DNA of 52,326 bases, taken from positions 1-52,326 of the forward strand of contig JAQVFR010000023.1 in the NCBI GenBank assembly GCA_028697145.1, in the 5' to 3' direction. How positions within the stretch are numbered: position 1 is the first letter of the stretch; each line of letters begins with the position of its first letter. The translations under genes and the position numbers were made by a program. Shown one piece after another: positions 4,431 to 49,514 of this stretch. The stretch comes from Actinomycetota bacterium. Lineage in GTDB: Bacteria; Actinomycetota; Geothermincolia; Geothermincolales; RBG-13-55-18. The notes beneath the pieces were generated by a model. That model ran no database searches. It saw only the letters and a list, made by a program, of their open reading frames with translations, and was not told the DNA's origin.

Positions 4431-7094
4431 ATGGGCAAGTCGTTCCTGATGGCGTTCGATCTCGGCGGCGGCTCGGGCAGATGCCTGCTCGCGGATGTGG
4501 ACACCGGCACCACCTTCAGCGCGAAAAGGAACTGGTCGCACCCCGTCGCGCCCGACACCGCGGGCCTCGGTTTTGACCTCGACCTCGGGGATATGTGGAA
4601 TAAACTGGGCGAGGCTTGCCGCCAGGTTATGCTTGAGGCCGGCGCGGAGGCGGAAGACGTCCGGGGAGTAGCCGCCTGCAGCATGCGCAACACAACCGTG
4701 CTCCTGGACGGCGATGGCAACCCGCTCTTCGCCGTGCCCAACCAGGACGCGCGCGCTCTGGGCAGCGCGCTCATGCTCGCGGGCGAGCGCGGCATGGAGG
4801 TCTACGAAGCCGGCGGACACTGGCCCAGCCCTCTCTTCACCGGCGCCAGGCTGCTGTGGCTGCGGGACAACGCGCCGCAGCTGCTGGAGCAGGCGGCGAG
4901 GGTGGCAAGCCTTTCGGACTGGGTGGGTCTGCGCCTGGGCGGCGTCCTTCTCGCGGAGAGGTCCCAGTCGAGCGAGACCCTCCTCTTCGACCAGCGCGCC
5001 GACGACTGGGACCGCGACCTCATCGCTTCCCTCGGCATGGATCCCGCCCTCTTCCCCGAGACGGTCGATGCCGGTACGCGCATAGGCGCCCTGACGGCGC
5101 CGGCGGCGGAACACCTGGGGCTGGCGCCGGGGACCCCGGTGGCGGCGGGAGGGGCGGACACGCAGTGCGGACTGCTGGGGATGGGATGCACGGGAGAGGG
5201 CATGGTGGGGATCAGCGCGGGGACCAGCATGCCGGTGCAGCAGGTGACCGCCTCGTACGTGCTGGATGGCGAGGGCCGCCTGTGGAGCGGACGGCACGTC
5301 GTGCCCGGCCTCTACCTGGTGGAGAGCAACGGCATGATCACGGGGACGGTGCTGGAGTGGTTCGCGCGCATACTCTACCCAGACAGCAGCGACCCGCTGG
5401 CGGCGCTCTTCACCGAGGCCGCGGCGTCCGAGCCCGGCGCCGCCGGGATATATTCCACCCTGGGCGCACGGGTATTCGACGCGCGCACCACCAGCGTATT
5501 GCTGGGTAATCTTACCATGTCGCACATGGTCACCCCGGATGTCTCCTCATTCCGCGCCCATGTGGGCCGCGCCCTGCTGGAGGGCATAGCCTACTCCGCC
5601 CGCGCCAACCTCGACCAGGTGCAGGCGGCGACGCGCCTGGAGCCCACGGGCGTCTGGGTGGGAGGCGGCATGTCGAAAAGCTCCGCGTGGACGGGCATGG
5701 TCGCTGACATCCTGGGCAGGAAGGTGGGTGTGCCCTCCAGCCCGGAGGTATCGGCACTGGGAACAGCCGTCTGCGCGGGCGTGGGCGCTGGTCTTTTCCG
5801 CGACCTGGGCGAGGGCGTGGGACGGCTCTCCCGCCTGGAGAGGGAACACGAGCCGGGCGCCCACTGCGAGAAATACCAGGGGCTCTACGCGGGATGGCGG
5901 CAGGCCGTGGAAATGCGCGCCGAATGCGACGCCCACATGGCCAACCTCATGGCCATGGCCATGATAAGCCGCGCTCCGGCCGCGAGCGAGGCCCCCGCCG
6001 CTTTCCGCCCCCGCATCCTGGTCACCGCATCCATGGACGAGGAGGCGCTGGACGAGCTGCGCGAGATGGGCGAGGTCAACTACAGTTCATGGCGGGAGAG
6101 CCGCAACGTGTTTGGGGGTGGAGATGACCTGGTGAAAGCGCTGCGGGACTTCGAGGTCTTCGTGACGGAGATGGACATCGTGGACTTCGAGGCGCTGAAG
6201 GGGCTTCCGGACCTGAAGATGATCATTTGCTGCCGCGTGAACGCGGTGAACGTGGACCTGGAGGCGGCCACCGCCTTCGGCGTCCCGGTGGCGAACACGC
6301 CCGGCAGGAACGCGGACGCCGTGGCGGACCTCACCGTGGCCCTCATGGTCATGCTGGCGCGCAATCTCGCGCAGGCCGCCTCCTTCCTCAAGGAGGGGGG
6401 CTTCGAGGCGGGCGACATGGCGAGGATGGGCGAGGCCTACCTTGCGTACCAGGGAAAGGAACTGTGGCGTAAGACGGTGGGCCTGGTGGGCCTGGGCAGC
6501 GTGGGTGAGCGTGTGGCGCGCAGGCTCGTGCCCTTCGGCGCGCGGGTGCTCTTCTACGACCCCGCTGTGGGGGCGGGGGAAGGGGCGCTCGCCGGGGCGG
6601 AGAAGGTCTCCTTCAATGAGCTGCTCGAGCGCAGCGACTTCGTGAGCCTCCACGCGCCCGCCATCGAGGCCACGGAGAACATGATGGACCGCGCAGCCTT
6701 CTCGCTGATGAAGGAGGGCGCCTTCTTCATAAACACCGCGCGGCCGTCCCTCGTGGATGACGGAGCCCTGGCGGAGGCGCTGGAATCGGGCAGGCTGGCC
6801 GGCGCAGCCCTGGACGTGTTCACGGTGGAGCCGCCCGGGTCGGACGACCGCCTGGTGGTGAGAGAAAACGTGATCGCGACGCCGCACGTCGGGGGGAACA
6901 CCGTGGAGATAGGCGCACACCAGGGGGAGATAGCCGCGCGGCAGCTGCGCATGCTGCTGAGGGGCGAGGCGCCCGAGCACGTCCTCAACCCGGAGGTGAT
7001 GGAGGGGTTCTCCTGGACCGGCTCCCGCCGCGAGCCTCCGCCCGGGGAGCTGGAGCGCCTGGCCGCCAACCCCAAGCCCTCCATGACCTCCTGA
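4431..7094 (+). CDS. FGGY-family carbohydrate kinase fused to D-2-hydroxyacid dehydrogenase
   Basis: An 887-residue two-domain enzyme. Residues 1 to about 515 are an FGGY sugar kinase: the phosphate-binding loop AFDLGGGSGR at the N-terminus, GGADTQCG in the middle, and GGGMSKSSAW before the C-terminal ATPase lobe. Residues about 525-860 form an NAD-dependent D-isomer 2-hydroxyacid dehydrogenase. That part has the dinucleotide motif GLGSVG (about 685) and catalytic Arg in NTARPSLVD, Glu in FTVEPPG and His in TPHVGGNT. Each half is about full length for its family. The start at 4431 follows AAAGGAG. LsrK-like AI-2 kinases are the nearest kinase type I recognise. The substrate is unknown. Confidence 0.88.
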   Translation: MGKSFLMAFDLGGGSGRCLLADVDTGTTFSAKRNWSHPVAPDTAGLGFDLDLGDMWNKLGEACRQVMLEAGAEAEDVRGVAACSMRNTTVLLDGDGNPLFAVPNQDARALGSALMLAGERGMEVYEAGGHWPSPLFTGARLLWLRDNAPQLLEQAARVASLSDWVGLRLGGVLLAERSQSSETLLFDQRADDWDRDLIASLGMDPALFPETVDAGTRIGALTAPAAEHLGLAPGTPVAAGGADTQCGLLGMGCTGEGMVGISAGTSMPVQQVTASYVLDGEGRLWSGRHVVPGLYLVESNGMITGTVLEWFARILYPDSSDPLAALFTEAAASEPGAAGIYSTLGARVFDARTTSVLLGNLTMSHMVTPDVSSFRAHVGRALLEGIAYSARANLDQVQAATRLEPTGVWVGGGMSKSSAWTGMVADILGRKVGVPSSPEVSALGTAVCAGVGAGLFRDLGEGVGRLSRLEREHEPGAHCEKYQGLYAGWRQAVEMRAECDAHMANLMAMAMISRAPAASEAPAAFRPRILVTASMDEEALDELREMGEVNYSSWRESRNVFGGGDDLVKALRDFEVFVTEMDIVDFEALKGLPDLKMIICCRVNAVNVDLEAATAFGVPVANTPGRNADAVADLTVALMVMLARNLAQAASFLKEGGFEAGDMARMGEAYLAYQGKELWRKTVGLVGLGSVGERVARRLVPFGARVLFYDPAVGAGEGALAGAEKVSFNELLERSDFVSLHAPAIEATENMMDRAAFSLMKEGAFFINTARPSLVDDGALAEALESGRLAGAALDVFTVEPPGSDDRLVVRENVIATPHVGGNTVEIGAHQGEIAARQLRMLLRGEAPEHVLNPEVMEGFSWTGSRREPPPGELERLAANPKPSMTS

Positions 7095-7144
7095 CGTCCC
7101 GTCGGCGCAGAGGTAAATACTACCAGCCCCCGCACCCCCCATTT

Positions 7145-7169
7145 GTTTGCCGCGCCCGTTAAGGGGCAT
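7145..7169 (+). promoter_or_regulatory. Candidate SigB/SigF-type promoter upstream of HEAT gene
   Basis: GTTTGC (7145-7150) and GGGCAT (7164-7169) are separated by 13 bp. This resembles the GTTT-N13/14-GGGTAT promoter of Gram-positive general stress sigma factors. Similar pairs occur at 14045 and 16349. No standard -35/-10 pair is as good here. The sigma factor gene is not in the window. Confidence 0.4.
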
Positions 7170-7239
7170 AATAACAATAAAGCTCTTCTACGAGCGGGAG
7201 TTCGAAATCGACGCCCCTTCACGAGGGGCATTGTTTACG

Positions 7240-8238
7240 ATGAGACCGGAAGGGAGAGACGCGACGGTGTTCGACATGAACCCATTCGACATCATGCATG
7301 ACGACAAGACGGCGGACCTCATAAAGGCGCTGGGCGACGAGGATCCAGGCGTACGCTTGAAGGCCGTGAAGGCACTGGGGAAGACCAGGACCCGCCGCTC
7401 CGCGGACGCGCTGATCGCGATCCTCTCGGACAAGAACGAGAGAGTGAGATGGGCCGCCGCTGATTCCCTGCTAGAGATGGGGGAGCTGGTGGTCGAATCC
7501 CTGCTCGATGCCCTGGACGCGGAGGACAAGTACACGCGGGCGGAGGCGGCGGGTGTCCTGGGAAAGATGAGGAACGAGAGGGCCATCGAGCCCCTGATAG
7601 AGTGCATGAAGGACGACGACATCAACGTGAGGTGGATCGCCTCGAAGGCCCTGGCGACCATGGGATATCCCGCGGTCAGGCCCCTCATAGACGCCATGGA
7701 CGACAAGAGCCTGCGTATCCGCAAGCGGGCGATGGACGCCCTGGTCAAGATGGGGCAGCCGGCGATACGTCCCCTGGTGGAATCCCTCGACGACCAGCGG
7801 CTGCGCGTGCGTTGGGGAGCGCTTGAAGCCTGCGAGCACATGGGGTCCCAGGCGGCGGGGCTGCTCATGTTCGCGCTGGATACCGGCACCCTGCGCGCCA
7901 AGTGGAGGGCGGCGACGGCACTGGGAAGGATAGGAGACCCCAAGGCGCTCGAGTCGCTCATCGCCGCCTTGCGCGACAAGCACCATTACGTGAGGTGGAA
8001 AGCGGCCGAGGCGCTCGGCGCCATCGGCGACAAGGGCGCGGTGGACGCGCTCATCGAGGCCCTGGGCGACGAGAACAGGTACGTGCGCCTTGGCGCTGCC
8101 AGGTCCCTGGGCATACTCAAGGACGAGAGGTCGCTGCCGGCTCTCGAGGAGGCAACAAAGGACGAGGACGTCCTCGTCCAGGAGGCCGCCGAAAGGGCGC
8201 TCAGAAACGTGAGGTTCGCCATCCGTTTCGGTGATTGA
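7240..8238 (+). CDS. HEAT-repeat (PBS-lyase type) scaffold protein
   Basis: The protein is built almost entirely of about nine to ten 31-residue HEAT/PBS-lyase repeats. Typical units are VRWAAADSLLEMGELVVESL and VRWKAAEALGAIGDKGAVDA. Such repeats form superhelical protein-binding scaffolds; no catalytic residues are visible. The start is uncertain: ATG 7240, GTG 7267 (AGGGAG 10 bases upstream) and ATG 7276 are all possible. A close paralog lies at 34827-35810, matching unit by unit, including the shared EDKYTRAEAAGVLGKM-type block. It is probably expressed alone from the promoter at 7145. Partner unknown. Confidence 0.85.
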   Translation: MRPEGRDATVFDMNPFDIMHDDKTADLIKALGDEDPGVRLKAVKALGKTRTRRSADALIAILSDKNERVRWAAADSLLEMGELVVESLLDALDAEDKYTRAEAAGVLGKMRNERAIEPLIECMKDDDINVRWIASKALATMGYPAVRPLIDAMDDKSLRIRKRAMDALVKMGQPAIRPLVESLDDQRLRVRWGALEACEHMGSQAAGLLMFALDTGTLRAKWRAATALGRIGDPKALESLIAALRDKHHYVRWKAAEALGAIGDKGAVDALIEALGDENRYVRLGAARSLGILKDERSLPALEEATKDEDVLVQEAAERALRNVRFAIRFGD

Positions 8239-31198: not shown

Positions 31199-31209
31199 GA
31201 TACATGCAT

Positions 31210-31286
31210 GCGCCCGTAGCTCAACTGGATAGAGCGACAGACTACGGATCTGTAGGTTGGGGGTTCGACTCCCTCCGGGCGTGCCA
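31210..31286 (+). tRNA. tRNA-Arg (anticodon ACG)
   Basis: A 77-base class I tRNA. The acceptor GCGCCCG pairs with CGGGCGT (one G-U), the anticodon stem ACAGA/TCTGT encloses CTACGGA with anticodon ACG, and the T-arm contains GGTTCGACT. The CCA end is encoded. The first anticodon base is probably modified to inosine by TadA, whose gene is at 46151. Confidence 0.95.
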
Positions 31287-31413
31287 CCCGAAAAAGCAGG
31301 TCAGGGATTTATTTCCTGGCCTGTTTCTCTTTGCTCCGCCTGCACAGGCGGGGGATGGCAACACGGCCTGGCCTAATGGCGGCTATGGGAACCGCATATC
31401 GACGGCTCGGATG

Positions 31414-31419
31414 TATAAT
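31414..31419 (+). promoter_or_regulatory. FAD oxidase gene promoter -10
   Basis: A perfect TATAAT lies 52 bases upstream of the chosen ATG at 31471. Transcription from it would start near 31426, which argues against the upstream in-frame starts. Confidence 0.45.
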
Positions 31420-31470
31420 CGGAAGGGGAAGATGGCGCGGCGGCTGAATTCGGACGGGGGGAGCATACGC

Positions 31471-33027
31471 ATGGACGATATCCTCGGGGCACTGGCGGAG
31501 GCGGTGGGCGAGGAGAACGTCTCGTGCGAACCGGCTGTGCTCGACGGCTACGCCTTCCAGAGCTTCGGCAACATCGATGATTCAACCCCCTGGGTCCACC
31601 GCCCCGTGGCCGTCGCCCTTCCCTCCACCGTCGAGGAGGTCCAGGCGGTGGTCAGGACCTGCGTCCGCGGCGGCCTCAAGTTCAAGGCCTTCTCGACCGG
31701 TTGGGGCGCCCATGGCGGTCCGGGTGAGGGGGGCGTCGTCCAGATCGACCTGCGCCGCATGGACCGCATCCTCGACATCGACGAGAAGAACATGATCGCA
31801 CTGGTCGAACCGTTCGTGATCTGCGCCCAGGTGCAGGCGGAGGCGATGAAGCGTGGCCTCAACCTGCACATCATCGGGGCGGGATGCGGCACCTCCCCCC
31901 TGGCCAGCTGCACCTCGATGGACGGCACTGGCTGGACGGGGCTGAGCACCGGCTACAACTGCCGCAACATCCTCGGGGTGGAATGGGTGCTCCCAGGCGG
32001 CGATCTCCTGAGGCTGGGGAGTCCCGGAAGCGATGCGGGATGGTTCTGCGGGGACGGACCCGGCCCCTCTCTGCGCGGGGTCATGCGCGGCCTTTTCGGA
32101 GCCCGCAGCGGCCTGGGTGTGTTCACCAGGTGCGCCATCAAGCTCTATGCGTGGAACGGGTCGCCGCAGCCGGAGGTCAGTGGGACCCTGGCGGACCTGG
32201 CGGCCGAGCCCCCCGCGAACTTCAAGACGTACATGTGCCTTTTCCCCTCCTTCGAGGCATACGCCGATTTCGCCTACGCCGTCGCCGACGCGGAGATAGG
32301 CTTCATGTTGTGCAAGAACTCCATCGGCCTCATCCTTTCTATATACATGCCCCGCCTCCTGAAGAAGATGGCGTCCGCCACCGCCCTCAAGAGCGCCCTG
32401 AACGCGGCCGAGCACATGTTCCAGTTCATGATCGCGGCGAGTTCCCGCGGGGAGCTGGAATACCAGCAGGAGGTCCTGCAGCGCATAGCGGAGGCATGCG
32501 GCGCCGTCCTCATCGACCTCGACCTGGCGCCGGGCTTCGGCGGGGCGGTGTGGTGGGGACTGGTGCGCGGGGCCCTTCCTCCCCTGTCCTTCCGCATGGG
32601 AGGGATGATGGGCACCTCCTTTGGCACCTGCGCCGCCTTCGACAACTGCGTCAACCAGTCGCGCACCGGGGCCGCGCTGAAGCGAAAATACATAGAAGAG
32701 GGGAGACTCTACGACGACCTCGCGGACAATGCCTGGGGCGGGATCTACGAGAGCACCGGGCTCTACGGGCACCAGGAGGAGCTCATCCTCTTCGACCACC
32801 GCGACCCCCGCCACCGCGAGGGGGTGGCCGCATACGGCATCGAGGCGGCCGAGATCATGCGGGACGAGCATTACGGAGTCGGCCTGGGGGCTTTCATGCT
32901 GGACGCCGCCGCGAGGGACCGCGTTTTCGGTCCCGGGGCGGGCGATTATCCGGCATGGCAGAAAAAGATCAAGGACATCCTGGACCCGAACGCCGCCGCC
33001 GACGGCCGTTTCTACTCCGCGGATTGA
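31471..33027 (+). CDS. FAD-binding (PCMH-type) oxidoreductase, GlcD-like
   Basis: A 518-residue flavoprotein. The PCMH-type FAD domain spans about residues 25-215 (VAVALPSTVEEVQAVVRTC, FSTGWGAHGG, TGLSTGYNCRNILGVEW). A substrate domain follows with a C-terminal arm ending AWQKKIKDILDPN, as in GlcD and lactate or vanillyl-alcohol oxidases. It oxidises an unknown hydroxy compound. ATG 31471 follows GGGGGAG and fits the TATAAT at 31414; the frame stays open upstream without homologous-looking residues. No partner subunit is adjacent. Confidence 0.85.
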   Translation: MDDILGALAEAVGEENVSCEPAVLDGYAFQSFGNIDDSTPWVHRPVAVALPSTVEEVQAVVRTCVRGGLKFKAFSTGWGAHGGPGEGGVVQIDLRRMDRILDIDEKNMIALVEPFVICAQVQAEAMKRGLNLHIIGAGCGTSPLASCTSMDGTGWTGLSTGYNCRNILGVEWVLPGGDLLRLGSPGSDAGWFCGDGPGPSLRGVMRGLFGARSGLGVFTRCAIKLYAWNGSPQPEVSGTLADLAAEPPANFKTYMCLFPSFEAYADFAYAVADAEIGFMLCKNSIGLILSIYMPRLLKKMASATALKSALNAAEHMFQFMIAASSRGELEYQQEVLQRIAEACGAVLIDLDLAPGFGGAVWWGLVRGALPPLSFRMGGMMGTSFGTCAAFDNCVNQSRTGAALKRKYIEEGRLYDDLADNAWGGIYESTGLYGHQEELILFDHRDPRHREGVAAYGIEAAEIMRDEHYGVGLGAFMLDAAARDRVFGPGAGDYPAWQKKIKDILDPNAAADGRFYSAD

Positions 33028-35871: not shown

Positions 35872-36207
35872 TCAGGATTGTGCGTGAAAGGACCCGGCCG
35901 CGGCGTCTTCGCATATCTCAGCCGCGGCGGCTTTGTCGACACCGGCCAAGATAATATTCATACTCAGGACCGAAAAGGAGCCCGGCCGCAGGGGTCCGCC
36001 CCTGTACCTCGGGGCGGAGTCCAGTGAGGTCAGGCTGAAGAAAAGAGGCTTCTGCGCCTCGCTCTCGACCATTCCCTTGATATGCCCGACCATGGCACAT
36101 CCCGCTTCCCGCAGCCCCCGCAGGAGCGTCGCGAGGAAATCGTCCAGGACGTCCTGTGGTGGGCGCGGGGATGCAAACGTTATCTCCCGTCGCAGGGAAA
36201 ACGTCAC
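35872..36207 (-). CDS. Small protein coupled to CobW-like GTPase
   Basis: An approximately 111-residue protein I do not recognise. It reads MTFSLRREITFASPRPPQDV at the start and has AMVGHIKGMVESEA, LFFSLTSL and FSVLSMNIILAGVD strands, giving an alternating alpha/beta pattern without cysteines beyond two. The GTG at 36207 overlaps the stop of the GTPase gene by four bases (GTGA), so translation is coupled; an upstream GTG at 36225 is also possible. It probably works with the GTPase as partner or target. Confidence 0.65.
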   Translation of the reverse strand: MTFSLRREITFASPRPPQDVLDDFLATLLRGLREAGCAMVGHIKGMVESEAQKPLFFSLTSLDSAPRYRGGPLRPGSFSVLSMNIILAGVDKAAAAEICEDAAAGSFHAQS

Positions 36208-36815
36208 GAAGTCGTGCGCATCCACGCCTTCACCTTGTCCGTCACGAGGTCGAGGTTCACACCCCGCAGGGCCGAGGCTTTCACCACCTCGGCCTCCGGG
36301 TTCAGCTCGGCAAGCCTACTCTCCAGCGCTGCGATGAGGCCGTCCTCGCCGCTGTCGGTCTTGTTGAGCACCACCAGGTCGGCGTGCTTCACCTGGTTGA
36401 CGACGAAGGGCATGGCCTCCTCGAGATAGAGCTCGTGTCTCTCGAGGTCGGCAAGGGTGATGACCATCACGGCGTCGAGCTCGCGGCAGTACTTGTCCAG
36501 GGTCTCGAGGATGCTCTCCACCCGGGCGAGCCCCGACGCCTCCAGGATGACGCAGTCGGGGTTGAGGGCGGTCCCGATCTCCCGCAGGGTGACCACCAGG
36601 TCGCCCGCGAGCTGGCAGCACACGCACCCGGAGTAGAGCTCCCTCACCTGCAGACCTTCTCTCTCCAGGAGGACGCCGTCCACGCCTATCTCTCCCACTT
36701 CGTTCTCCAGGATGACGAACTCCCGCCCGCTGGCGGACGTAAGCCTTCCCACCAGGCCGAGCAGGAAAGTGGTCTTGCCGGAGCCGAGAAAACCGGAGAC
36801 GATCATCAGTCTCAT
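36204..36815 (-). CDS. CobW/HypB/UreG-type metallochaperone GTPase
   Basis: A 203-residue G3E GTPase: P-loop GFLGSGKTT (residues 7-15), ENEVGEIGVDG, the metal motif GCVCCQ (CxCC, about 62-66) and the guanine-specificity NKTD near residue 155. Such proteins insert or deliver metals with GTP hydrolysis. The C-terminal CobW domain is absent, so the protein is short. ATG 36815 follows GGAAGGA. It lies divergent from the GntR-corrinoid operon, so cobalt or zinc delivery for methyltransferases is an attractive inference. Confidence 0.88.
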   Translation of the reverse strand: MRLMIVSGFLGSGKTTFLLGLVGRLTSASGREFVILENEVGEIGVDGVLLEREGLQVRELYSGCVCCQLAGDLVVTLREIGTALNPDCVILEASGLARVESILETLDKYCRELDAVMVITLADLERHELYLEEAMPFVVNQVKHADLVVLNKTDSGEDGLIAALESRLAELNPEAEVVKASALRGVNLDLVTDKVKAWMRTTS

Positions 36816-36907
36816 GGGTGTCCTTCCTCGCATCGCCCCAGGGACAAGTATAACCTGAGCCCATACCGGGCGGCGCAGGCTCACGTCCTTGCCCCCCGTC
36901 CTCCTAT

Positions 36908-36929
36908 CTTGTATGATTGTATATACAAG
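36908..36929. promoter_or_regulatory. GntR-type operator upstream of the corrinoid operon
   Basis: CTTGTAT (36908-36914) and ATACAAG (36923-36929) are inverted repeats, and TTGTATATACAA (36917-36928) is a perfect 12-bp palindrome within them. It lies about 30 bases upstream of the GntR gene. HutC/UTRA-type regulators bind AT-rich palindromes of this sort, so autoregulation is likely. Confidence 0.6.
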
Positions 36930-36957: not shown

Positions 36958-37707
36958 ATGTCCCTGGAGAAGAGAGAGCAGATCGACGGGGATTCGTTCG
37001 TGCCCGCCTATTTTCAGCTGGCCCAGGTCCTGCACGGGGAGATACTCAACGGCAGCCTGCGTCCCGGTGACCGCGTGCCCAGCGAGAACGAGCTCAGCGA
37101 GGAGTACGGCCTCAGCCGCATGACCGCGCGCAAGGCCATCTCCCTGCTCACGGAGAAAGGCCTGGTGCGGCGGGAGAAGGGCAGGGGCACCTTCGTCAGC
37201 CGCCCCCGCGTGGAAGGCGGCCTCTTCCTCATCCCCGATCTTCACGATGAGATGAGGATGCAGGGCCTCTCGTCGGACGTGAGGCTGCTGGGGGTGAAGA
37301 TGGTGCCCGCGGGCAGGGTGCCCGCGGGCAAGCTGGGGATAAAGAACGGCGAGAAGGTCATATTCCTGGAGAGGGTGCTGGAGGGTGGCGGCGAGCCCCT
37401 GGTGCTCGACCGCAAGTACGTGCTGCTCGACCGCTCGCAGCCCCTGCTGGAGTCCGAGCTCGGTCACGGCTCTACGGAGGAGCTATTTGCGGGCAACGCG
37501 GAGATGGCCCCGGTGAGGGCGGACCTCAAGCTCTCGGCGACCGTCCTCTCCGCGCGCGAGGCGCAGCTCCTGGGGGGGAAGAAAGGGGCGCCGGCTTTCT
37601 GCATGGAGCAGCTCATCTTCGCGGCCAACGACAAGCGGGTCATATGGGGATGGCTGCTGTACCGGGGCGACAGGTTCAGCTTCGAGTCCGTGAGCCGACT
37701 GTTGTGA
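36958..37707 (+). CDS. GntR family regulator with UTRA domain
   Basis: A 249-residue regulator. The winged helix spans about residues 15-80, with PSENELSEEYGLSRMTARKA and KGLVRREKGRGTFVS. A UTRA ligand-binding domain fills about residues 95-245. ATG 36958 follows AAGGGGGA. It directly precedes two corrinoid proteins and two UROD-type methyltransferases on the same strand with a gap of only 9 bases, so it should sense their methyl-donor substrate or a product. The operator candidate is at 36908-36929. Confidence 0.92.
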   Translation: MSLEKREQIDGDSFVPAYFQLAQVLHGEILNGSLRPGDRVPSENELSEEYGLSRMTARKAISLLTEKGLVRREKGRGTFVSRPRVEGGLFLIPDLHDEMRMQGLSSDVRLLGVKMVPAGRVPAGKLGIKNGEKVIFLERVLEGGGEPLVLDRKYVLLDRSQPLLESELGHGSTEELFAGNAEMAPVRADLKLSATVLSAREAQLLGGKKGAPAFCMEQLIFAANDKRVIWGWLLYRGDRFSFESVSRLL

Positions 37708-37716
37708 GGTGATCAA

Positions 37717-38355
37717 GTGGATGACGAGAGACTCGTGAAAGCCATGGGAGACCTGGACGAGGAGGGCGTGATCGCCTGCGTCAAGGGCATGCTCTCCGCG
37801 GGCGTCGAGCCCCTGCGTATCGTGGAACTCTGCCGCGAGGGTTTCGAGATCGTCGGCAGGCGCTACGAGACGCGGGAATATTTCCTCTCCGGGCTGATCA
37901 TCTCGGACGATATATTCTCGAACGTGCTGGACATGCTGGACCGCTCGGGTTGCTTCCGCCCCAGCGATGAAGGGAGGATGGGCAAGGTGGTGTTGGGCGC
38001 CCCCCTCGGCGACGTGCACGACATCGGCAAGGCAATAGTCGCCCAGTTGCTGCGCTTCTCCGGCTTCGAGGTGATCGACCTCGGGGTCAACGTCCGCCCG
38101 GCGGGCTTCCTGGAGGCAGTGATGGAGAGCGGCGCGGCCGTGGTGGGGATAAGCACCTTGATCACCGTGGCCTACGAGTCCCTGCGGGAGACCGTGCTGG
38201 ACTTCGAGCGCGAGGGCCTGCGCGGCAACGTGAAGATAATGCTGGGCGGCGGCGCCGTCTCGCAAAGGGTATGCGATTACGCCGGTGCGGACGCCTGGAG
38301 CCGCGACGCCGGGGATGCAGTCAAGTTCGCGAAGATGTTCACGGAAAAGGAGTGA
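37717..38355 (+). CDS. Corrinoid (B12-binding) protein, first copy
   Basis: A 212-residue methyltransferase-type corrinoid protein. The N-terminal helical cap (about 1-85) contains REYFLSGLIISDDIF. The Rossmann B12 domain has GDVHDIGKAIV (DxHxxG, the His being the lower cobalt ligand, about residue 105), VGISTLITVAYE and MLGGGAVS. It carries the methyl group between a substrate methyltransferase and a second enzyme. GTG 37717 follows GAGGTGAT. Its stop overlaps the start region of the second copy, so expression is coupled. Confidence 0.92.
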   Translation: MDDERLVKAMGDLDEEGVIACVKGMLSAGVEPLRIVELCREGFEIVGRRYETREYFLSGLIISDDIFSNVLDMLDRSGCFRPSDEGRMGKVVLGAPLGDVHDIGKAIVAQLLRFSGFEVIDLGVNVRPAGFLEAVMESGAAVVGISTLITVAYESLRETVLDFEREGLRGNVKIMLGGGAVSQRVCDYAGADAWSRDAGDAVKFAKMFTEKE

Positions 38356-38360
38356 TGGGC

Positions 38361-38984
38361 ATGAGCGAGAGGATCGCGGCATTGATAGCCGAGGTGGAGG
38401 AGGACAAGACCCTGGAGGAGGTGCGCAGGGCACTGGACGACGGCGCCGACCCCCTCTCCCTGGTGGAGGCGCTGCGCGAGGGGATGTCCGTAGTGGGCGA
38501 GAAATACGAGGCGAAGGAGTACTTCCTGCCCGACCTCATCCTCTCGGCGGAGATCTTCAAGGAGGCCATCGCGCTCATCGAGCCTCGTCTCAAGAGCGAT
38601 TCCATCTCCGCCCGGGGCACGGTGGTCATCGGCACCGCCCAGGGCGATATCCACGATATCGGCAAGAACATCGTGGCCACCATGCTCAGGTGCAACGGGT
38701 ATGAGGTGCACGACCTCGGTGTCGATGTCCCCCCCGGGGCTTTCGTGGAGAAAGCCGCGCAGACCGGGGCCGGCATGGTCGCCATTTCCGGCCTGCTCAC
38801 CCTGGCCTTCGATGCCATGAGGGACACCGTGGATGCCCTGGCCGAGGCGGGCTTGCGGGACAGGCTCAAGATAATCATCGGGGGCGGCCCGGTGAACGAG
38901 AAGGTGCTCGATTACTGCGGGGCGGACGCGTACGGCAAGGACCCGTCGGAGGCGGTGAGGCTGGCCGAAAAGCACCTGGGATAG
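38361..38984 (+). CDS. Corrinoid (B12-binding) protein, second copy
   Basis: A 207-residue paralog of the preceding protein with the same two-domain layout: KEYFLPDLILSAEIFKEAI in the cap, GDIHDIGKNIVATML with the cobalt-ligand His, and IIIGGGPVNEKVLDYCGADAY at the end. ATG 38361 is favoured by its spacing from AAAAGGAG, although ATG 38355 overlaps the previous stop. Two distinct corrinoid carriers in one operon match the two methyltransferases that follow and suggest either a heteromeric complex or two substrates. Confidence 0.92.
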   Translation: MSERIAALIAEVEEDKTLEEVRRALDDGADPLSLVEALREGMSVVGEKYEAKEYFLPDLILSAEIFKEAIALIEPRLKSDSISARGTVVIGTAQGDIHDIGKNIVATMLRCNGYEVHDLGVDVPPGAFVEKAAQTGAGMVAISGLLTLAFDAMRDTVDALAEAGLRDRLKIIIGGGPVNEKVLDYCGADAYGKDPSEAVRLAEKHLG

Positions 38985-39028
38985 ACGGGAGAAGACCCGG
39001 AGAGTGATCGCCGAGGAGGCGTACTATC

Positions 39029-40318
39029 ATGAAAGTGACGAAGCTGCTTTATCCCAAGGACACCATGACCGCCGAGGAGCGGCTGCAGGCAGCCATCAAC
39101 CTGCAGGTGCCCGACCGCGTGCCGTCTTGCCCGTTCATCTACTACTACGCCGCTTTTCATGCGGGGATCACCGTGCACGAGCTGTGGTCCGAGCCGAAGA
39201 AGTACCGCCAGGCCATCGACGGATGCTACCGTGACCTGGGCCCCTGGGACGTCTATTATCCTGTGAACCCCCTCCGCCCGGAGCTTTATACCTTCATCAT
39301 GCCCATGAAGGCGAGGTGGCCGGGCATCGACCTCCCCCCGGACAGCATCTGCCAGCTGCTGGAAGAGGAGATCATGAAGGCGGAGGACTACGAGTGGATC
39401 GGCGAGCTGGCGCGGAAGATCCCTAGACTCACCTACATCCCCTTTTTCATGCGCATGATCTCGCGTGCCTGGGATGATGTGGACGAGGACGCGAGAGGAT
39501 ATGTGTTGATGCTCTCCCGGTTGGTCTGGAACTTCGCCAACTGGAGGTACGATTTCGAGCAGATGAAGAAGCGGGGCACGACGGTCCTTTACGGTTTCCT
39601 CCCCGAGGCGGCCTTCGACACCTTCTCCCTTGCTCGCGGATTCCTCGAGTTCAGCCGCGACCTCAAGAAACGGCCGCGGGATATCGCCAGGGCCGCGGAT
39701 GACCTCACCGAGGGATACCTGTTTGCCTGCAGGCTCATCTGCGCCATTATGGGGGTCAAGCGGGTGGAGGTGTTCGTGCACCGCTCGTCCACGGATTTCA
39801 TCTCGCCGCAGGCCTTCCGCGAGCTCTCCTTCCCCTCCCTGAAGGCATTGGTGGAGAAGCTGGTGGCGGCGGGCATCAACCCCATACTGCACTGCGACGG
39901 CAACTGGGACATGAACCTGGAGGCCTTGCGGGAGCTGCCGGCGGGGAACTGCGTCGTACAGTTCGATGGCCCCACCGATATCTTCCTGGCCAAGGAGATA
40001 ATCGGGGACCGCATGTGCATCATGGGCGACGTCCCCGCGGACCTGCTTGCCCTTGGTTCGCCCACGGAGGTGGACGAGTACTGCCACCGTCTCATCGAGG
40101 AGGTCGGCAGGGGCGGCGGATATATCATGGGGGCCGGCTGCGAGATACCGCCCAACGCCAGGTCCGAGAACGTTAAGGCGATGATCGAATCGGTGGTGAA
40201 ATACAGCTATTACCACGAGCGGCGGGAAACCGGGCCGCCGGCAGGTGTGGCCGCCGCTTCGAGGAAACCGTACGGTGAAAAGAACGGTCCGTTTGCGAGA
40301 GAGGCAGGTTGCTCATGA
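39029..40318 (+). CDS. UROD/MtaA-family corrinoid methyltransferase, first copy
   Basis: The 429-residue protein has the uroporphyrinogen decarboxylase-like TIM barrel used by MtaA/MtbA-type methyltransferases. Near residue 287 it reads ILHCDGNWDMNLEAL, where MtaA-like enzymes have HxC zinc ligands. A later Cys in GAGCEIPPNARSENVKAM could be a further ligand. TPRL-type decarboxylase residues are not obvious, so heme biosynthesis is unlikely. ATG 39029 follows GAGGAGG. It overlaps the next gene by four bases. It should move methyl groups to or from one of the adjacent corrinoid proteins. Confidence 0.87.
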   Translation: MKVTKLLYPKDTMTAEERLQAAINLQVPDRVPSCPFIYYYAAFHAGITVHELWSEPKKYRQAIDGCYRDLGPWDVYYPVNPLRPELYTFIMPMKARWPGIDLPPDSICQLLEEEIMKAEDYEWIGELARKIPRLTYIPFFMRMISRAWDDVDEDARGYVLMLSRLVWNFANWRYDFEQMKKRGTTVLYGFLPEAAFDTFSLARGFLEFSRDLKKRPRDIARAADDLTEGYLFACRLICAIMGVKRVEVFVHRSSTDFISPQAFRELSFPSLKALVEKLVAAGINPILHCDGNWDMNLEALRELPAGNCVVQFDGPTDIFLAKEIIGDRMCIMGDVPADLLALGSPTEVDEYCHRLIEEVGRGGGYIMGAGCEIPPNARSENVKAMIESVVKYSYYHERRETGPPAGVAAASRKPYGEKNGPFAREAGCS

Positions 40319-41517
40319 AAGAAAAGTTAATGCTCCGGCCCGGGGACACCATGACCTCGGAAGAGCGCATGAAGGCGGCCATACGCCTGCAGGTCCCCGA
40401 CCGCGTGCCTGCGGTACCCTGCGTTTACTATTATTTCGCCACCTACTCGGGGCTCTCGTACGCCGACCTTTTCGAGCCCAAGCTGTACCGGCGGGCGACC
40501 ATGAAGCTTTTCGACGAACTCGGGCCCTGGGATGCATATAACTTTTTCCATACCTACTACCGGGAGCTGGCCTCCTTCTTCATACCCATGGTAACCATGG
40601 AGCCCGGCTTCGAGCTTCCCCGGGACATCATTCGTCAGTTCAAGGAAGAGGAGATAATGCAGCCGGAGGATTATGCCCACATCGTGGAGATGAGCAAGCG
40701 TACGCCCCGGCTCTCCTTCTATCGCGTCATGATGGATTTCATGCCCAGGATCTACGACTATATCCAGGCGGGCTGGCGCTCCTACGCCTTCGTGCTCCCC
40801 CGCTTCGCGGCCCAGCTCGCCTACTACCGTTACGAGTTCCGGGACTGGTTCGACCGCGGGGCCACCCTTTTCTATTCCATCGGGCCCGTGGAGGTACCCT
40901 TCGATACCTTCTCGCTCGCGCGTGGGCTGATCCCCTTCGTCAAGGACCTCTCCAGGTTTCCCGGGGAGATCATGAAGGCGGCGGAAGCCCTGGTGCCCGG
41001 CTACATCTTCCTTATCAAGGCGACCGTCAACCTTTTCGGGATAAAGCGCGCGATGATCGACCTCCACCGCTCCTCCAACGACTTCCTCTCTCCCGATCAG
41101 TTCAGGAGATACGCCCTGCCCTCGCTCAAGCTGCTCGTAGACGGGCTGCATGACGAGGGCATCTCCGTCATCATGCACTGCGACGGCAACTGGGACATGA
41201 ACCTGGAGGCCTTGCGGGAACTGCCGGCGGGCCAGTGCGTCATCCAGCTCGACGGGGCCACGGACATCTTCAAGGCCAAGGAGGTCATCGGGGACCGCAT
41301 GTGCATATACGGGGACGTCCCGGCGAGTATGCTGGCGCTGGGGGCTCCGGCGGAGGTGGACGAGTACTGCCACCGGCTTATCGAGGAGGTCGGCAGGGGC
41401 GGGGGCTTCATGCTGGGCACCGGATGCGAACTGGCCCCCAACGCCCGAGCGGAGAACGTCAAGGCCATGCTGGACTCCGTTTTAAAATACGGCTATTACG
41501 ACCGGCCCGAGAAATAG
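40315..41517 (+). CDS. UROD/MtaA-family corrinoid methyltransferase, second copy
   Basis: A 400-residue paralog of the preceding gene. Both open with a PGDTMT/PKDTMT segment followed by ERM/ERL-KAAI-x-LQVPDRVP. Both also share HCDGNWDMNLEALRELPAG and GxGCE-PNAR-ENVKAM. The first half diverges more, as expected if the substrate differs. The ATG overlaps the upstream stop (ATGA). It ends the operon, with a strong terminator 9 bases later. The donor compound is not evident; methoxylated, methylated-amine or thiol substrates are all possible. Confidence 0.87.
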   Translation: MKEKLMLRPGDTMTSEERMKAAIRLQVPDRVPAVPCVYYYFATYSGLSYADLFEPKLYRRATMKLFDELGPWDAYNFFHTYYRELASFFIPMVTMEPGFELPRDIIRQFKEEEIMQPEDYAHIVEMSKRTPRLSFYRVMMDFMPRIYDYIQAGWRSYAFVLPRFAAQLAYYRYEFRDWFDRGATLFYSIGPVEVPFDTFSLARGLIPFVKDLSRFPGEIMKAAEALVPGYIFLIKATVNLFGIKRAMIDLHRSSNDFLSPDQFRRYALPSLKLLVDGLHDEGISVIMHCDGNWDMNLEALRELPAGQCVIQLDGATDIFKAKEVIGDRMCIYGDVPASMLALGAPAEVDEYCHRLIEEVGRGGGFMLGTGCELAPNARAENVKAMLDSVLKYGYYDRPEK

Positions 41518-44025: not shown

Positions 44026-44067
44026 GGGTATATGTGTGTGAGCAACGTCGCGCGGGAGGGAGCCGGA

Positions 44068-44277
44068 ATGATCCACGTGAGCGAGAAATGCACCGGGTGC
44101 CTCACCTGCGCTTTGGTGTGTTCGCTCTCCCACCACGAACAGTGCAGCCCCTCGCTCGCATACGTCCGCCTGCATGCGGACGGCTCGCGCTGGCGGGCCG
44201 AGTTCACGCCGGATTGCGACGAATGCGGGAGATGTGCGAGGTATTGCCCGTATGGAGCGCTGGAGAAGGAGAATTGA
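44068..44277 (+). CDS. 2[4Fe-4S] ferredoxin, partner of AOR-family protein
   Basis: A 69-residue ferredoxin with two clusters of cysteines, CTGCLTCALVC (residues 8-18) and CDECGRCARYCP (about 51-62), spaced as for two [4Fe-4S] clusters but with a longer middle region than clostridial ferredoxins. ATG 44068 follows GGGAGGG; upstream in-frame codons do not look coding. It ends 1 base before the AOR-family start, so the two are cotranscribed and probably form an electron-transfer pair. Confidence 0.88.
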   Translation: MIHVSEKCTGCLTCALVCSLSHHEQCSPSLAYVRLHADGSRWRAEFTPDCDECGRCARYCPYGALEKEN

Positions 44278-44278
44278 T

Positions 44279-46123
44279 ATGCGGGGTGGATACACGGGCC
44301 GCCTCATGGTCGTTGACCTGACCCGAGGCGAGGCATCCGTGGAGGATTACCGTGAGGATTTCGCGGCGGATTACCTCGGTGGTTTCGGCGTGAACAACCG
44401 CCTCTTCCTCGAGTACTCATCCCCCGGCACGGATGCGCTGTCGCCGCAAAACCCGGTCATATTCGGAGCGGGACCCCTGGTTGGTACGCTGGTCCCCGGC
44501 GCCTCCCGGGTCATGGCCAACGCGAGGCTGCCTCTTACCGGGGCTGTGGCCTCGGCGAGCGGGAGCATGGGGCTGGGGGCGAACATGAAATGGTCCGGCC
44601 TCGACCACGTCGTACTTGTGGGGAGGGCGCCCGCGCCCACCCTTCTATATATAGAGGACGGCCGCGTGGACCTGCTCCCCGCCGCGTCCCTGTGGGGCAC
44701 GGGGATCCTGGAGACCACTCGGTCGCTCCGGGCCGCGTATCCCGGCGCCTCGGTCATGGCCATCGGTCCGGCGGGCGAGAGCGGAGCCCATTCTTCTCTG
44801 GCCATGATCGACGCCTGCGCCACCCTGGGCAGGGGCGGGCTGGCGGCGGTCCTGGGGTCGAAAAACCTCAAGGCCCTGGTGGTGAAGGGCGGCGGCGGGG
44901 TTGCCATCGCGGACCCGGGCCGCGTGCAGGAGCTGGTCAAGGGACTGCACCAGCGCCTGGAGAACTTCGATATGCGCGAGGCGGCGGCGGAGCTGGGCAT
45001 GATAGGAGCCTGGCCGATGTACGCGAGCCAGCTCCTCCCCTACGGCGCCAGCGAGGAGGACCTGAGGGAACTGACAGAGCGCTTCGGCCCCAGGGCCTAC
45101 CTCGAGCTGAAGAAATGCCGCATATCCTGCCCCTCCTGTTTCCTCGCGGACAAGGACGAACTCCTCCTGCCGTCCACGGGGGAGAGCGTCTATTCCACCT
45201 CCTTCCTCAATGCCGCCATCATCGGCTGCGCCCTGCTCATGCGCGACGCGGAGGAGGCCGCTTCCACCTTGGCGCTCTTGGACGACCTGGGCCTGGATTT
45301 CATGACCCTCAGCTGGCAGGCGGCCTTCCTGCTGGAGCTGCGCGAGCACGGGTTCATCACCGAGGAGGACGCCGAGGGTATCCCCCTGGCCAGGGGGGCC
45401 GCCATCCTGCGCGAACTGGCGCTGCGGGTGACGGAGCGCAGGGGCGAGATCGGCGAGGCATTTGCGCGGGGCTGGCGCGGCGCCCTGGAGCTGTTCGGCG
45501 AGGACAAACGCCGCTACACCATGCTGGTGAGGGACCAGGACTGCCTTTACGACCCCCGCGTGAGCGGCCTGGGCACCATGGAGTTCGAGCAGGTGGTATC
45601 GCCGCGCGGGCCCACCTCGGCCAGCGCCGGCTCGGCCACCTACGTCCCCGGGCTCCCCGAGGAGCGGCTGTGCCGCCTCACCGCGCGCATGGGCGTGGGC
45701 GAGCAGGCGCTGGGGCGCATCTTCTCCCCGCCCTGGGGCATGAACGTGGGCAGGCTCACCCGCTACTCCGAGGACTGGTTCAGCCTTTTCAGCTCGCTGG
45801 GCATCTGCAACCGCTACCAGATCAACCGTTTCTACCACGCCGAGCTCGTCCGCGACCTCTACGCCGCGGTTACCGGGGTGGAGCTCGAGGTCGGCGAGAT
45901 GATGGACAAGGCGGCGGCGGCCTGGGGGCTTTACCGGGAACTGAACGCCCGCGAGGGGCTGGGGAGCGAGGCCGATGTACCGCCCGAGGCCTGGTTCGAC
46001 GAACAACCGCTGTGGGGAAGGGGAGGACACCTCAGGGATTATCTCGGAAATGAACTAACGCGCGAAGATATTCTAACGCTTATCGGGGATTATCACGATG
46101 AAAGAGGCAGGAAACACGGTTAA
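44279..46123 (+). CDS. Aldehyde:ferredoxin oxidoreductase (AOR) family protein
   Basis: A 614-residue AOR-family tungsto- or molybdopterin enzyme. The N-terminal domain includes YTGRLMVVDLTRGEASVED, LGGFGVNNR, GPLVGTLVPGASR and GRGGLAAVLGSKNLKALVVKG, all family hallmarks. The Fe-S cysteines fall in KKCRISCPSCF (about residue 280), with a later Cys in SLGICNRYQ (about 508). The Cys pattern differs from the classic CxxCxxxC order, so the aldehyde substrate may differ. Low-potential electrons would pass to the adjacent ferredoxin. The ATG follows GAGAAGGAGA, one base after the ferredoxin stop. Confidence 0.87.
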   Translation: MRGGYTGRLMVVDLTRGEASVEDYREDFAADYLGGFGVNNRLFLEYSSPGTDALSPQNPVIFGAGPLVGTLVPGASRVMANARLPLTGAVASASGSMGLGANMKWSGLDHVVLVGRAPAPTLLYIEDGRVDLLPAASLWGTGILETTRSLRAAYPGASVMAIGPAGESGAHSSLAMIDACATLGRGGLAAVLGSKNLKALVVKGGGGVAIADPGRVQELVKGLHQRLENFDMREAAAELGMIGAWPMYASQLLPYGASEEDLRELTERFGPRAYLELKKCRISCPSCFLADKDELLLPSTGESVYSTSFLNAAIIGCALLMRDAEEAASTLALLDDLGLDFMTLSWQAAFLLELREHGFITEEDAEGIPLARGAAILRELALRVTERRGEIGEAFARGWRGALELFGEDKRRYTMLVRDQDCLYDPRVSGLGTMEFEQVVSPRGPTSASAGSATYVPGLPEERLCRLTARMGVGEQALGRIFSPPWGMNVGRLTRYSEDWFSLFSSLGICNRYQINRFYHAELVRDLYAAVTGVELEVGEMMDKAAAAWGLYRELNAREGLGSEADVPPEAWFDEQPLWGRGGHLRDYLGNELTREDILTLIGDYHDERGRKHG

Positions 46124-48378: not shown

Positions 48379-49383
48379 TTACCGTACTTCATAGAGCCTC
48401 TGCTCCGTCCACACGTGCCAAGTGAGGCAGGCGAGCTTTCTGGCCGTGGCCACCCTGGCGTCCCCGGCTCCTTTCCTCCGCTTGATGCGCTCGTGGTAGA
48501 AGCGCAGCTCTGAAGAGGCCATAACTGCCGGCCTCGCCGCCTCGATGAAGGCCCATCTTAGGTACTTGTTCCCCTGCTTGGTTAACCTGCCGTGGAAGGT
48601 CTTCTCCCCCGAGGAATAGGTGGAGGGGACAAGCCCGGTGAAGCAGGCGAACTTCTCGGGCGAACGGAAGCGGGCCATGTCCCCCACCTCGTAGCGGATG
48701 AGCACCGAGAAGAAGTCGCCGATTCCGGGGATGCTGCGGAGCAGCTTCACCGCATGATCGCCACGGGAGAGATCCCTTATCAAGCCCTCGGTGGACTTTA
48801 TCCTCTTCCTCACCTCGGAGAGGAACTCGAGGTCCTCGGCCAGGATCAGGTTGTCGGGGTAGGGGAGGTCCAGGCCCCTGAGCCAACTCATGCCCGCGAC
48901 GCCAAACAGGTCACTCAACTTTGGCTTCTCAAGATCGTGCTGGCTTACGGTGGCATGGATGCGGTTCTTGAACATGGTCTGCACCCGGACCAGGAACATC
49001 CTCTGGCGGAGGACCCTCTTTATCGCCCTCGTCTCCTGAGAGCAGGCATAGGCCTCGGGGATGAGGTCCGCGCGCAGAAGATGGGCCAGGGTAGCGGAGT
49101 CTATGGTGTCGGTCTTTATCCTCGCATCCGCTATCGCCCTTACCTTCTGGGGATGGGCGAGGATCACCTCGTCTGCAATCTCCACCAGCCAGTCGTACAT
49201 CTTCCCCCAGTTGTAGCCGGCCTCCAGGACGGCCTTGATCGGTTGGTCAGTGAATTCCCCCAAGACCGCGATCAAATCCTCCTCCCTTGTAACTATTCCT
49301 TTTCTCTTCAGGATTTTGCCGCGTTCGTCGGTTAACGTAAGGTGTGAGGTTTTCGTGTGGTGGTCTACCCCCAGATAGAGCAT
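48379..49383 (-). CDS. IS110-family transposase (DEDD recombinase)
   Basis: The 334-residue protein has the IS110 layout. The N-terminal RuvC-like domain has Asp in LGVDHHTKTSHL (residue 7), Glu in AVLEAGYNW (about 54) and an Asp pair in RIKTDTIDSATLA (about 92). A helical middle follows, then the Transposase_20 domain with LLRSIPGIGDFFSVL, FTGLVPSTYSSGEK and KQGNKYLRWAFIEAA, containing the reactive Ser region. ATG 49383 is favoured by AGGAGG spacing. All expected parts are present, so the element is probably intact. It cuts and pastes DNA guided by an RNA in characterised relatives. Confidence 0.93.
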   Translation of the reverse strand: MLYLGVDHHTKTSHLTLTDERGKILKRKGIVTREEDLIAVLGEFTDQPIKAVLEAGYNWGKMYDWLVEIADEVILAHPQKVRAIADARIKTDTIDSATLAHLLRADLIPEAYACSQETRAIKRVLRQRMFLVRVQTMFKNRIHATVSQHDLEKPKLSDLFGVAGMSWLRGLDLPYPDNLILAEDLEFLSEVRKRIKSTEGLIRDLSRGDHAVKLLRSIPGIGDFFSVLIRYEVGDMARFRSPEKFACFTGLVPSTYSSGEKTFHGRLTKQGNKYLRWAFIEAARPAVMASSELRFYHERIKRRKGAGDARVATARKLACLTWHVWTEQRLYEVR

Positions 49384-49514
49384 CCCGTGCACCTCCTATC
49401 TTTAGCAGAAACTCCGACCCCTTCCGATAAAGAATAGCCGGTCGCACAGGCGCTTTCATCCTATCTCATATGCACCTCCGATAGCATGTTACAAACCAAA
49501 TTGAGACAGGTCAA
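49384..49514 (-). ncRNA. Candidate IS110 bridge-RNA leader and promoter
   Basis: On the minus strand TTGACC (49514-49509) and TAACAT (49491-49486) form a good promoter with 17-bp spacing. Transcription would begin near 49479 and leave about 95 untranslated bases before the transposase ATG. The leader contains CTATC/GATAG and other short pairs. In IS110-group elements this region encodes the bridge RNA. The call is from position and promoter, not from a matched structure. Confidence 0.4.

Follow-up and report, generated by a model that had tools for sequence, protein, structure and literature searches.

The 52,326-nucleotide stretch of DNA analysed here (the window) encodes an operon in which a GntR/UTRA regulator is followed by two corrinoid proteins (CP1 and CP2) and two methyltransferases with a predicted UroD fold (UROD1 and UROD2). 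With moderate confidence we interpret this operon as an O-demethylase module, in which two substrate methyltransferases (MTIs), each with a substrate of its own, use one constant pair of carriers; most likely it serves to demethylate methoxy compounds of plant origin. Enzymes of this type are already known, and the constant presence of two different carriers is unusual. New here is an obligate pair of anciently diverged carriers that comes with its own regulator and a conserved palindromic operator.

Operon Structure

The five genes form one tight operon on the plus strand, with intergenic spacings of +9, -1, +44 and -4 nt in operon order. The operon and its upstream neighbours are as follows:

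35872..36225, minus strand: 117-aa protein of a family without Pfam match, travelling with the CobW-like gene
36204..36836, minus strand: CobW-like GTPase, divergent from GntR (Pfam cobW 1.3e-35)
36917..36928, strand not applicable: palindrome TTGTATATACAA in the gap separating the divergently oriented CobW-like and GntR genes, a candidate operator for GntR
36958..37707, plus strand: GntR/UTRA (HutC-type) regulator (Pfam GntR 3.8e-20, UTRA 1.9e-22)
37717..38355, plus strand: CP1, corrinoid protein of a distinct clade (Pfam B12-binding and B12-binding_2; GDVHDIGK motif intact)
38355..38984, plus strand: CP2, canonical methyltransferase corrinoid protein (Pfam B12-binding and B12-binding_2)
39029..40318, plus strand: UROD1, UroD-fold methyltransferase, predicted substrate MTI (Pfam URO-D 2.1e-30)
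40315..41517, plus strand: UROD2, UroD-fold methyltransferase, predicted substrate MTI of another subfamily (Pfam URO-D 7.5e-28)

Plausible candidate ribosome-binding sites precede CP1, CP2 and UROD1. The true start of CP2 may be 38361 instead of 38355, and UROD2 starts at 40315 with an ATG that overlaps the UROD1 stop. An earlier note on this DNA had described an operon in which corrinoid and UROD genes are both doubled behind a single GntR regulator, and the unambiguous Pfam assignments, the spacing and the recurrence in relatives bear this out. Since the architecture recurs in related genomes, it is not due to chance. The palindrome and the divergent CobW-like GTPase gene were not mentioned in that note. 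An RNA search of the window yielded three tRNAs only and no cobalamin riboswitch.

Divergence of the Paralogues

UROD1 and UROD2 are 54% identical to each other, while each is 83-89% identical to its orthologue in genome G008, and their clades are supported at 100/97 each. They are thus ancient paralogues, and a recent redundant duplication was rejected. The same holds for CP1 and CP2, ancient paralogues that fall into separate clades (support for the CP1 clade 99/97). The duplication is therefore old, in keeping with the earlier note. The GD-x-HD-x-GK motif is intact in 12/12 CP1 sequences, so that CP1 as a degenerate carrier was also rejected. The best solved relative of CP2 is 4jgi (E 1.2e-48), which we take to be the corrinoid protein of a putative O-demethylase of D. 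hafniense. As a guess, CP1 might serve a partner or acceptor other than that of CP2.

Divergence between the methyltransferases is uneven. The C-terminal third is conserved (~80% identity between paralogues), whereas residues ~60-260 share 30-50% between paralogues and about 70-100% between orthologues. The C-terminal likeness is common to all relatives and is therefore mostly due to constraint; large-scale gene conversion between the tandem genes was rejected on this ground. Such conversion had been suspected from near-identical DNA of the two at the HCDGNWDMNLEALRELPAG stretch, and one 30-residue window has a raised synonymous match (0.88 vs 0.74 and 0.81 for orthologues).

Predicted Fold and Metal Site

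AlphaFold2 models of UROD1 (pLDDT 92.0, final ~25 aa predicted disordered) and UROD2 (pLDDT 95.4) have the UroD/MtaA TIM-barrel fold, with Foldseek matches to UroD and MtaA at E about 1e-11 to 1e-14. This predicted fold, with CP1 and CP2 encoded in the same operon, is what is expected of UroD-superfamily MTIs. In known O-demethylase and chloromethane systems the substrate MTI belongs to this superfamily (PMC13222342, PMC8630106). The earlier note had remarked on the absence of an MttB/MtaB-type substrate enzyme. There is indeed no MttB gene in the operon (the sole match in the genome is on contig C10), but such an enzyme is not missing, because in Mtv, Odm, Vdm, Mto and Cdm a UroD-fold protein itself serves as the substrate MTI.

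Both URODs are only distantly related to any characterised enzyme. Alignment to MtaA places His288-x-Asp290 and Cys371 of both at the columns of the MtaA HxC...C motif, and we predict that His-Asp-Cys forms the metal site in each. According to one preprint, whose metal-ligand rule is here applied by alignment, His-Cys-Cys goes with S/Se-methyl substrates and a carboxylate substitution with O-methyl substrates (PMC10418091). Under this rule O-demethylases have a carboxylate replacing Cys, or no ligands, and both URODs would belong with them.

The predicted site also bears on methyl-sulfur or methyl-selenium metabolism, as in type 1 mlp gene clusters, which we consider very unlikely for this operon. 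Those clusters likewise combine several UROD methyltransferases with a corrinoid protein and lack an MTII (PMC10418091). However, they have a His-Cys-Cys site and a RACE activase and are nearer to the MtaA family, whereas the operon here has, by alignment, His-Asp-Cys and contains no activase, RACE or other. Its URODs score only 63.9 and 62.7 bits against the MtaA/CmuA family (TIGR01463), for which the cut-off is 235.4 bits.

CdmB is the closest solved MTI by sequence for both URODs, which would point to dehalogenation of haloalkanes of the chloromethane type. The CdmBCA system of Acetobacterium dehalogenans also pairs a UroD-superfamily MTI with a corrinoid protein, but it has no metal site, a haloalkane substrate, one corrinoid protein and the MTII within the cluster (PMC13222342). 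The His and Cys positions kept by UROD1 and UROD2 are absent from CdmB. A further UROD of this genome (L030, contig C32, 6150-7490) also lacks them and groups with CdmB, although long branches make this grouping unsure, and it clusters with its own corrinoid protein and MTII. Haloalkane use by the operon studied here is therefore improbable.

Conserved Core and Variable Methyltransferases

In relatives, CP2 lies adjacent to CP1 or one gene off in 12/12 CP1 loci, and a GntR orthologue heads the module, preceding CP1, in all 11 readable loci. The number of URODs per module varies from 0 to 3. GntR, CP1 and CP2 are thus the constant core, and the URODs are variable. VAO/PCMH-superfamily flavoprotein genes recur nearby; their match to solved enzymes is limited to the FAD domain.

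The variation argues against two substrate-specific pairs, UROD1 acting with CP1 only and UROD2 with CP2 only, as the earlier note had suggested. Such pairing would fit the gene order CP1-UROD1-CP2-UROD in G071, as well as G017-C19, where CP2 and the UROD2-type gene are joined and lie on the strand opposite CP1. However, CP1 is kept without a UROD1-type gene in 7/12 modules, CP2 is kept where the sole UROD is UROD1-type (G278-C166), G008 has three URODs for two corrinoid proteins, and one module (G278-C37) has both carriers and no UROD. Since CP1 and CP2 both persist with 0, 1, 2 or 3 URODs, fixed pairs are unlikely.

It was also proposed that one UROD demethylates the substrate while the other hands the methyl on, for example to a thiol, in the manner of MtaA. 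The superfamily does include MtaA-type enzymes and the operon has no MTII. Against this, the predicted site is His-Asp-Cys in both URODs and His-Cys-Cys in neither, and some modules have one UROD only, which may be of either type (UROD1-type alone in G278-C166, UROD2-type alone in G017-C19). Furthermore, pterin-binding MTIIs are encoded in the genome on contigs other than that of the operon, and a relative takes the place of the URODs in a sister module: G278-C37 reads GntR-CP1-CP2-MTII, and its pterin-type MTII is 55% identical to the MTII on C7. A second 55% relative of the C7 MTII lies downstream of the G001 module. We therefore see little chance for such a division of labour. Judged from gene content, modules with a single UROD cannot depend on a heteromeric UROD1-UROD2 complex.

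A further reading of the constant core is an obligate two-carrier system: CP1 and CP2 would function together, whether as a relay, a hetero-oligomer or two branches leading to separate acceptors, and MTIs would be exchanged around this fixed pair. We regard this as possible but doubtful. No comparable system was found in the literature searched, nor anything specific on Geothermincolia methyltransferases or on two corrinoid proteins.

Regulation

The palindrome TTGTATATACAA occurs exactly once in the 2.98 Mb genome, has no further occurrence at 1 mismatch, and its 2-mismatch matches are as numerous as those of the control. A wider regulon containing a substrate methyltransferase, which the earlier note had raised, was therefore rejected. 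In 9/11 modules TGTATATACA is present upstream of GntR. The regulator would repress the operon through TTGTATATACAA until an inducer binds, and repression may extend to the divergent CobW-like gene. In five genomes the CobW-like gene is linked to genes of the UROD1 type; its orthologues adjoin them in G008, G009-C151 and G001 and lie near a UROD1 fragment in G017-C5. The 117-aa gene is conserved beside CobW in G008, G009 and G001.

Proposed Methyl Transfer and Known Systems

The Mtv, Odm and Vdm systems of acetogens have, as far as is known, one MTI and one corrinoid protein per system and the MTII within the cluster, unlike the operon here. Compared by description, they are alike in that a UroD-superfamily MTI acts with a corrinoid protein and the methyl group goes to H4folate (PMC13222342). 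The Mto system of Methermicoccus shengliensis (MtoB1, MtoB2, MtoC, MtoA, MtoD) also has two tandem MTIs, a corrinoid protein and a regulator in one operon (PMC8630106); it is archaeal, however, with one corrinoid protein vs two here, and has MTII and activase inside the operon. Its tandem MtoB1 and MtoB2, served by one MtoC, are believed to act on different substrates (PMC8630106). The mec cassette for dichloromethane shares several UROD-superfamily MTIs, a corrinoid protein and regulators (PMC9768040), but the regulators are two-component, one corrinoid protein is listed, and MTII and a transporter are included.

In the mechanism that we infer, the operon would supply the substrate-side proteins of a corrinoid-dependent O-demethylase system, with UROD1 and UROD2 as alternative MTIs, each for a different methoxy compound. 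A UROD would transfer the substrate methyl to Co(I) in a corrinoid protein, and CP1 and CP2, always kept together, would be shared by the MTIs without one-to-one pairing. The genome encodes the predicted MTIs and the corrinoid proteins in the operon and MTII on other contigs, and it has CODH/ACS genes. RACo-type activase genes are found on C7, where one adjoins the MTII, and on C26. The methyl group would then pass to tetrahydrofolate via the pterin-binding MTII encoded on C7, away from the operon, and enter the Wood-Ljungdahl pathway.

If this is correct, a class of uncultured subsurface Actinomycetota would use methoxy compounds and feed their methyl groups into the Wood-Ljungdahl pathway, and UroD-type methyltransferases would be interchangeable parts around a carrier core that stays fixed. 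Should CP1 and CP2 do separate jobs, which a few soluble proteins would suffice to test directly, this would break the picture of corrinoid methyl transfer in which one system has one carrier.

Gene Content of the Operon

All five genes lie in series on the plus strand and their Pfam families bear out the doubled corrinoid/UROD operon under one GntR regulator that the earlier note had described:

36958-37707, +, GntR/UTRA regulator (GntR and UTRA)
37717-38355, +, corrinoid protein CP1 (B12-binding and B12-binding_2)
38355-38984, +, corrinoid protein CP2 (B12-binding and B12-binding_2)
39029-40318, +, UroD-fold methyltransferase UROD1 (URO-D)
40315-41517, +, UroD-fold methyltransferase UROD2 (URO-D)

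Consecutive spacings are +9, -1, +44 and -4 nt. CP1 and CP2 retain the cobalt-ligand motif GD-x-HD-x-GK and are closest to the NCBIfam group of methyltransferase cognate corrinoid proteins. UROD1 and UROD2 are near the MtaA/CmuA family in NCBIfam, yet score far under its cut-off.

A Constant Core With Varying Methyltransferases

The main result is a constant GntR-CP1-CP2 core with varying UROD content. CP1 orthologues, which score 222 bits or more where other corrinoid proteins reach about 180 at most, occurred at 12 loci in 9 of the 396 genomes drawn from the phylum, all within one class, probably Geothermincolia to judge by the named relatives in the collection; these are the Actinomycetota MAGs SURF_21, Zod_Metabat.1188, Ca. 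Geothermincola primus and Ca. Geothermincola secundus. CP2 directly adjoins CP1 in 10 of the 12 loci, and one UROD gene separates them in two (G071, with the order CP1-UROD-CP2-UROD, and G017-C19; G numbers denote relatives' genomes and -C a contig). A GntR orthologue precedes CP1 in 11 of 11 loci, leaving out the one whose contig ends before that position. There are three URODs in G008, two in the window, G001, G009-C13, G009-C56 and G071, one in G002, G017-C19, G017-C10, G016-C57 and G278-C166, and none in G278-C37, which has a pterin-type methyltransferase (MTII) instead. CP1 without CP2 was not seen among these 12 loci in the 396 genomes. Contig C32 of the window's own genome encodes a CP2-clade protein with a UROD and without CP1, thus CP2 is able to exist without CP1. 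The earlier note had proposed either two substrate-specific pairs or a heteromeric complex, and a possible division of labour, with one UROD demethylating and the other passing the methyl group on; neither the pairs nor the division of labour predicts that CP2 always accompanies CP1 while the UROD count varies from 0 to 3.

In the sequence trees, CP1 (12 rows, support 99/97) and CP2 (13 rows, 90/95) are separate clades, and their split predates the spread of the modules. CP1, CP2 and GntR distances rise and fall together from module to module (r 0.79-0.88; Mantel p 0.0005); species history accounts for part of this, and it does not prove contact. Both the UROD1 clade (7 rows, 100/97) and the one containing UROD2 (12 rows, 100/97) are old. 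Second-type modules (G009-C56, G017-C10, G016-C57) combine the same core with URODs of a further clade.

Regulation

The perfect palindrome TTGTATATACAA sits some 30 nt ahead of the GntR start, between GntR and a divergent gene pair:

35872-36836, -, CobW-like GTPase and 117-aa protein of unknown family

In 9/11 modules GntR has the motif TGTATATACA upstream of it; the remaining 2/11 have near variants. The palindrome 12-mer occurs once in the window's genome, which has no 1-mismatch copies and matches the control in its number of 2-mismatch copies; therefore, the motif-defined regulon is local. The earlier note had raised a substrate methyltransferase (MTI) elsewhere in the same regulon; the whole-genome motif search gave no sign of another one under this candidate operator.

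The divergent pair travels with UROD1-type genes, adjoining them in G008, G009-C151 and G001. In G017-C5 the pair is some 1.7 kb away from a stretch of 179 residues that matches UROD1 in its C-terminal half. It is possibly a metal chaperone for the MTI. An IS110-type transposase is encoded at 48379-49392 (-).

Features of the UROD Enzymes

AlphaFold2 confidently predicted UroD folds for UROD1 and UROD2, and Foldseek matched them to UroD and MtaA. In the alignment, His288, Asp290 and Cys371 (UROD2 numbering) occupy the MtaA HxC...C columns in both and in nearly all relatives. By a published rule for the UroD superfamily, His-Cys-Cys marks S/Se methyltransferases and carboxylate replacement O-methyltransferases (PMC10418091). 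CdmB and the C32 UROD (6150-7490 of the extracted stretch L030) lack the residues that UROD1 and UROD2 carry. This C32 enzyme, without metal ligands, groups with CdmB, although long branches among distant rows make positions next to CdmB or other remote relatives uncertain. Its cluster (L030 5487-9121) encodes CP, UROD, a 233-aa protein (7525-8226) with no match in Pfam or NCBIfam, and MTII.

Paralogues share about 80% identity in the C-terminal third and 30-50% over residues ~60-260, where orthologues share about 70-100%. The conserved half would be common and carrier-facing, and the diverging half substrate-facing. Two tandem MTIs with one carrier are already known from Methermicoccus (MtoB1 and MtoB2; PMC8630106), whereas the window operon has two carriers with its tandem URODs. 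A named isolate, Sporomusa silvacetica, also has a UROD duplication, as tandem genes with an MFS transporter after them (L085 1528-4243). A 608-aa fusion on C29 (L033 5269-7095) matches both UROD and corrinoid protein, and a 650-aa UROD-containing ORF in G002 (L061 4676-6628) may be similar. In unrelated MAGs, a molybdopterin oxidoreductase gene directly adjoins UROD genes (L083 5760-10233, L086 7848-11261).

Substrate and Proposed Route

Near the module lies a flavoprotein gene:

31204-33027, +, FAD_binding_4 (VAO/PCMH superfamily) ORF

Its true start is further downstream, since the called start overlaps a tRNA (31210-31283). FAD_binding_4 flavoproteins also neighbour the G002 module and, as two genes, that of G278-C37; in the deltaproteobacterial MAG L082 one sits immediately upstream of a related UROD. 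Among the best solved relatives of the window copy are vanillyl-alcohol, eugenol and 4-allylsyringol oxidases and p-cresol methylhydroxylase; matches to solved enzymes cover the FAD domain only, and the score of D-lactate dehydrogenase is almost as high, so these neighbours are only suggestive of the substrate class. The best solved relative of CP2 is 4jgi, which we take to be the corrinoid protein of the putative O-demethylase of PMC3727330. At 44032-46123 (+), a gene for a 4Fe-4S ferredoxin-like protein precedes one for an aldehyde:ferredoxin oxidoreductase, and a related oxidoreductase gene lies near the G008 module.

The window's genome (2.98 Mb, 97.6% complete, with the window as contig C2) has 12 URO-D and 10 B12-binding_2 matches, one MttB (C10), two RACo-type activases (C7 and C26), four pterin-binding genes, one being the MTII adjoining the C7 activase, and CODH/ACS genes on C26. 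MTII and activase are therefore outside the operon, yet encoded by the genome. A link of CP1/CP2 to the C7-type MTII is supported by gene arrangement, because G278-C37 joins GntR-CP1-CP2 directly to an MTII 55% identical to it.

We consider most likely, with moderate confidence, a route in which UROD1 and UROD2 would each act as MTI on a different methoxy compound, both would use the CP1/CP2 carrier pair, and the methyl groups would pass to H4folate via the MTII encoded elsewhere.
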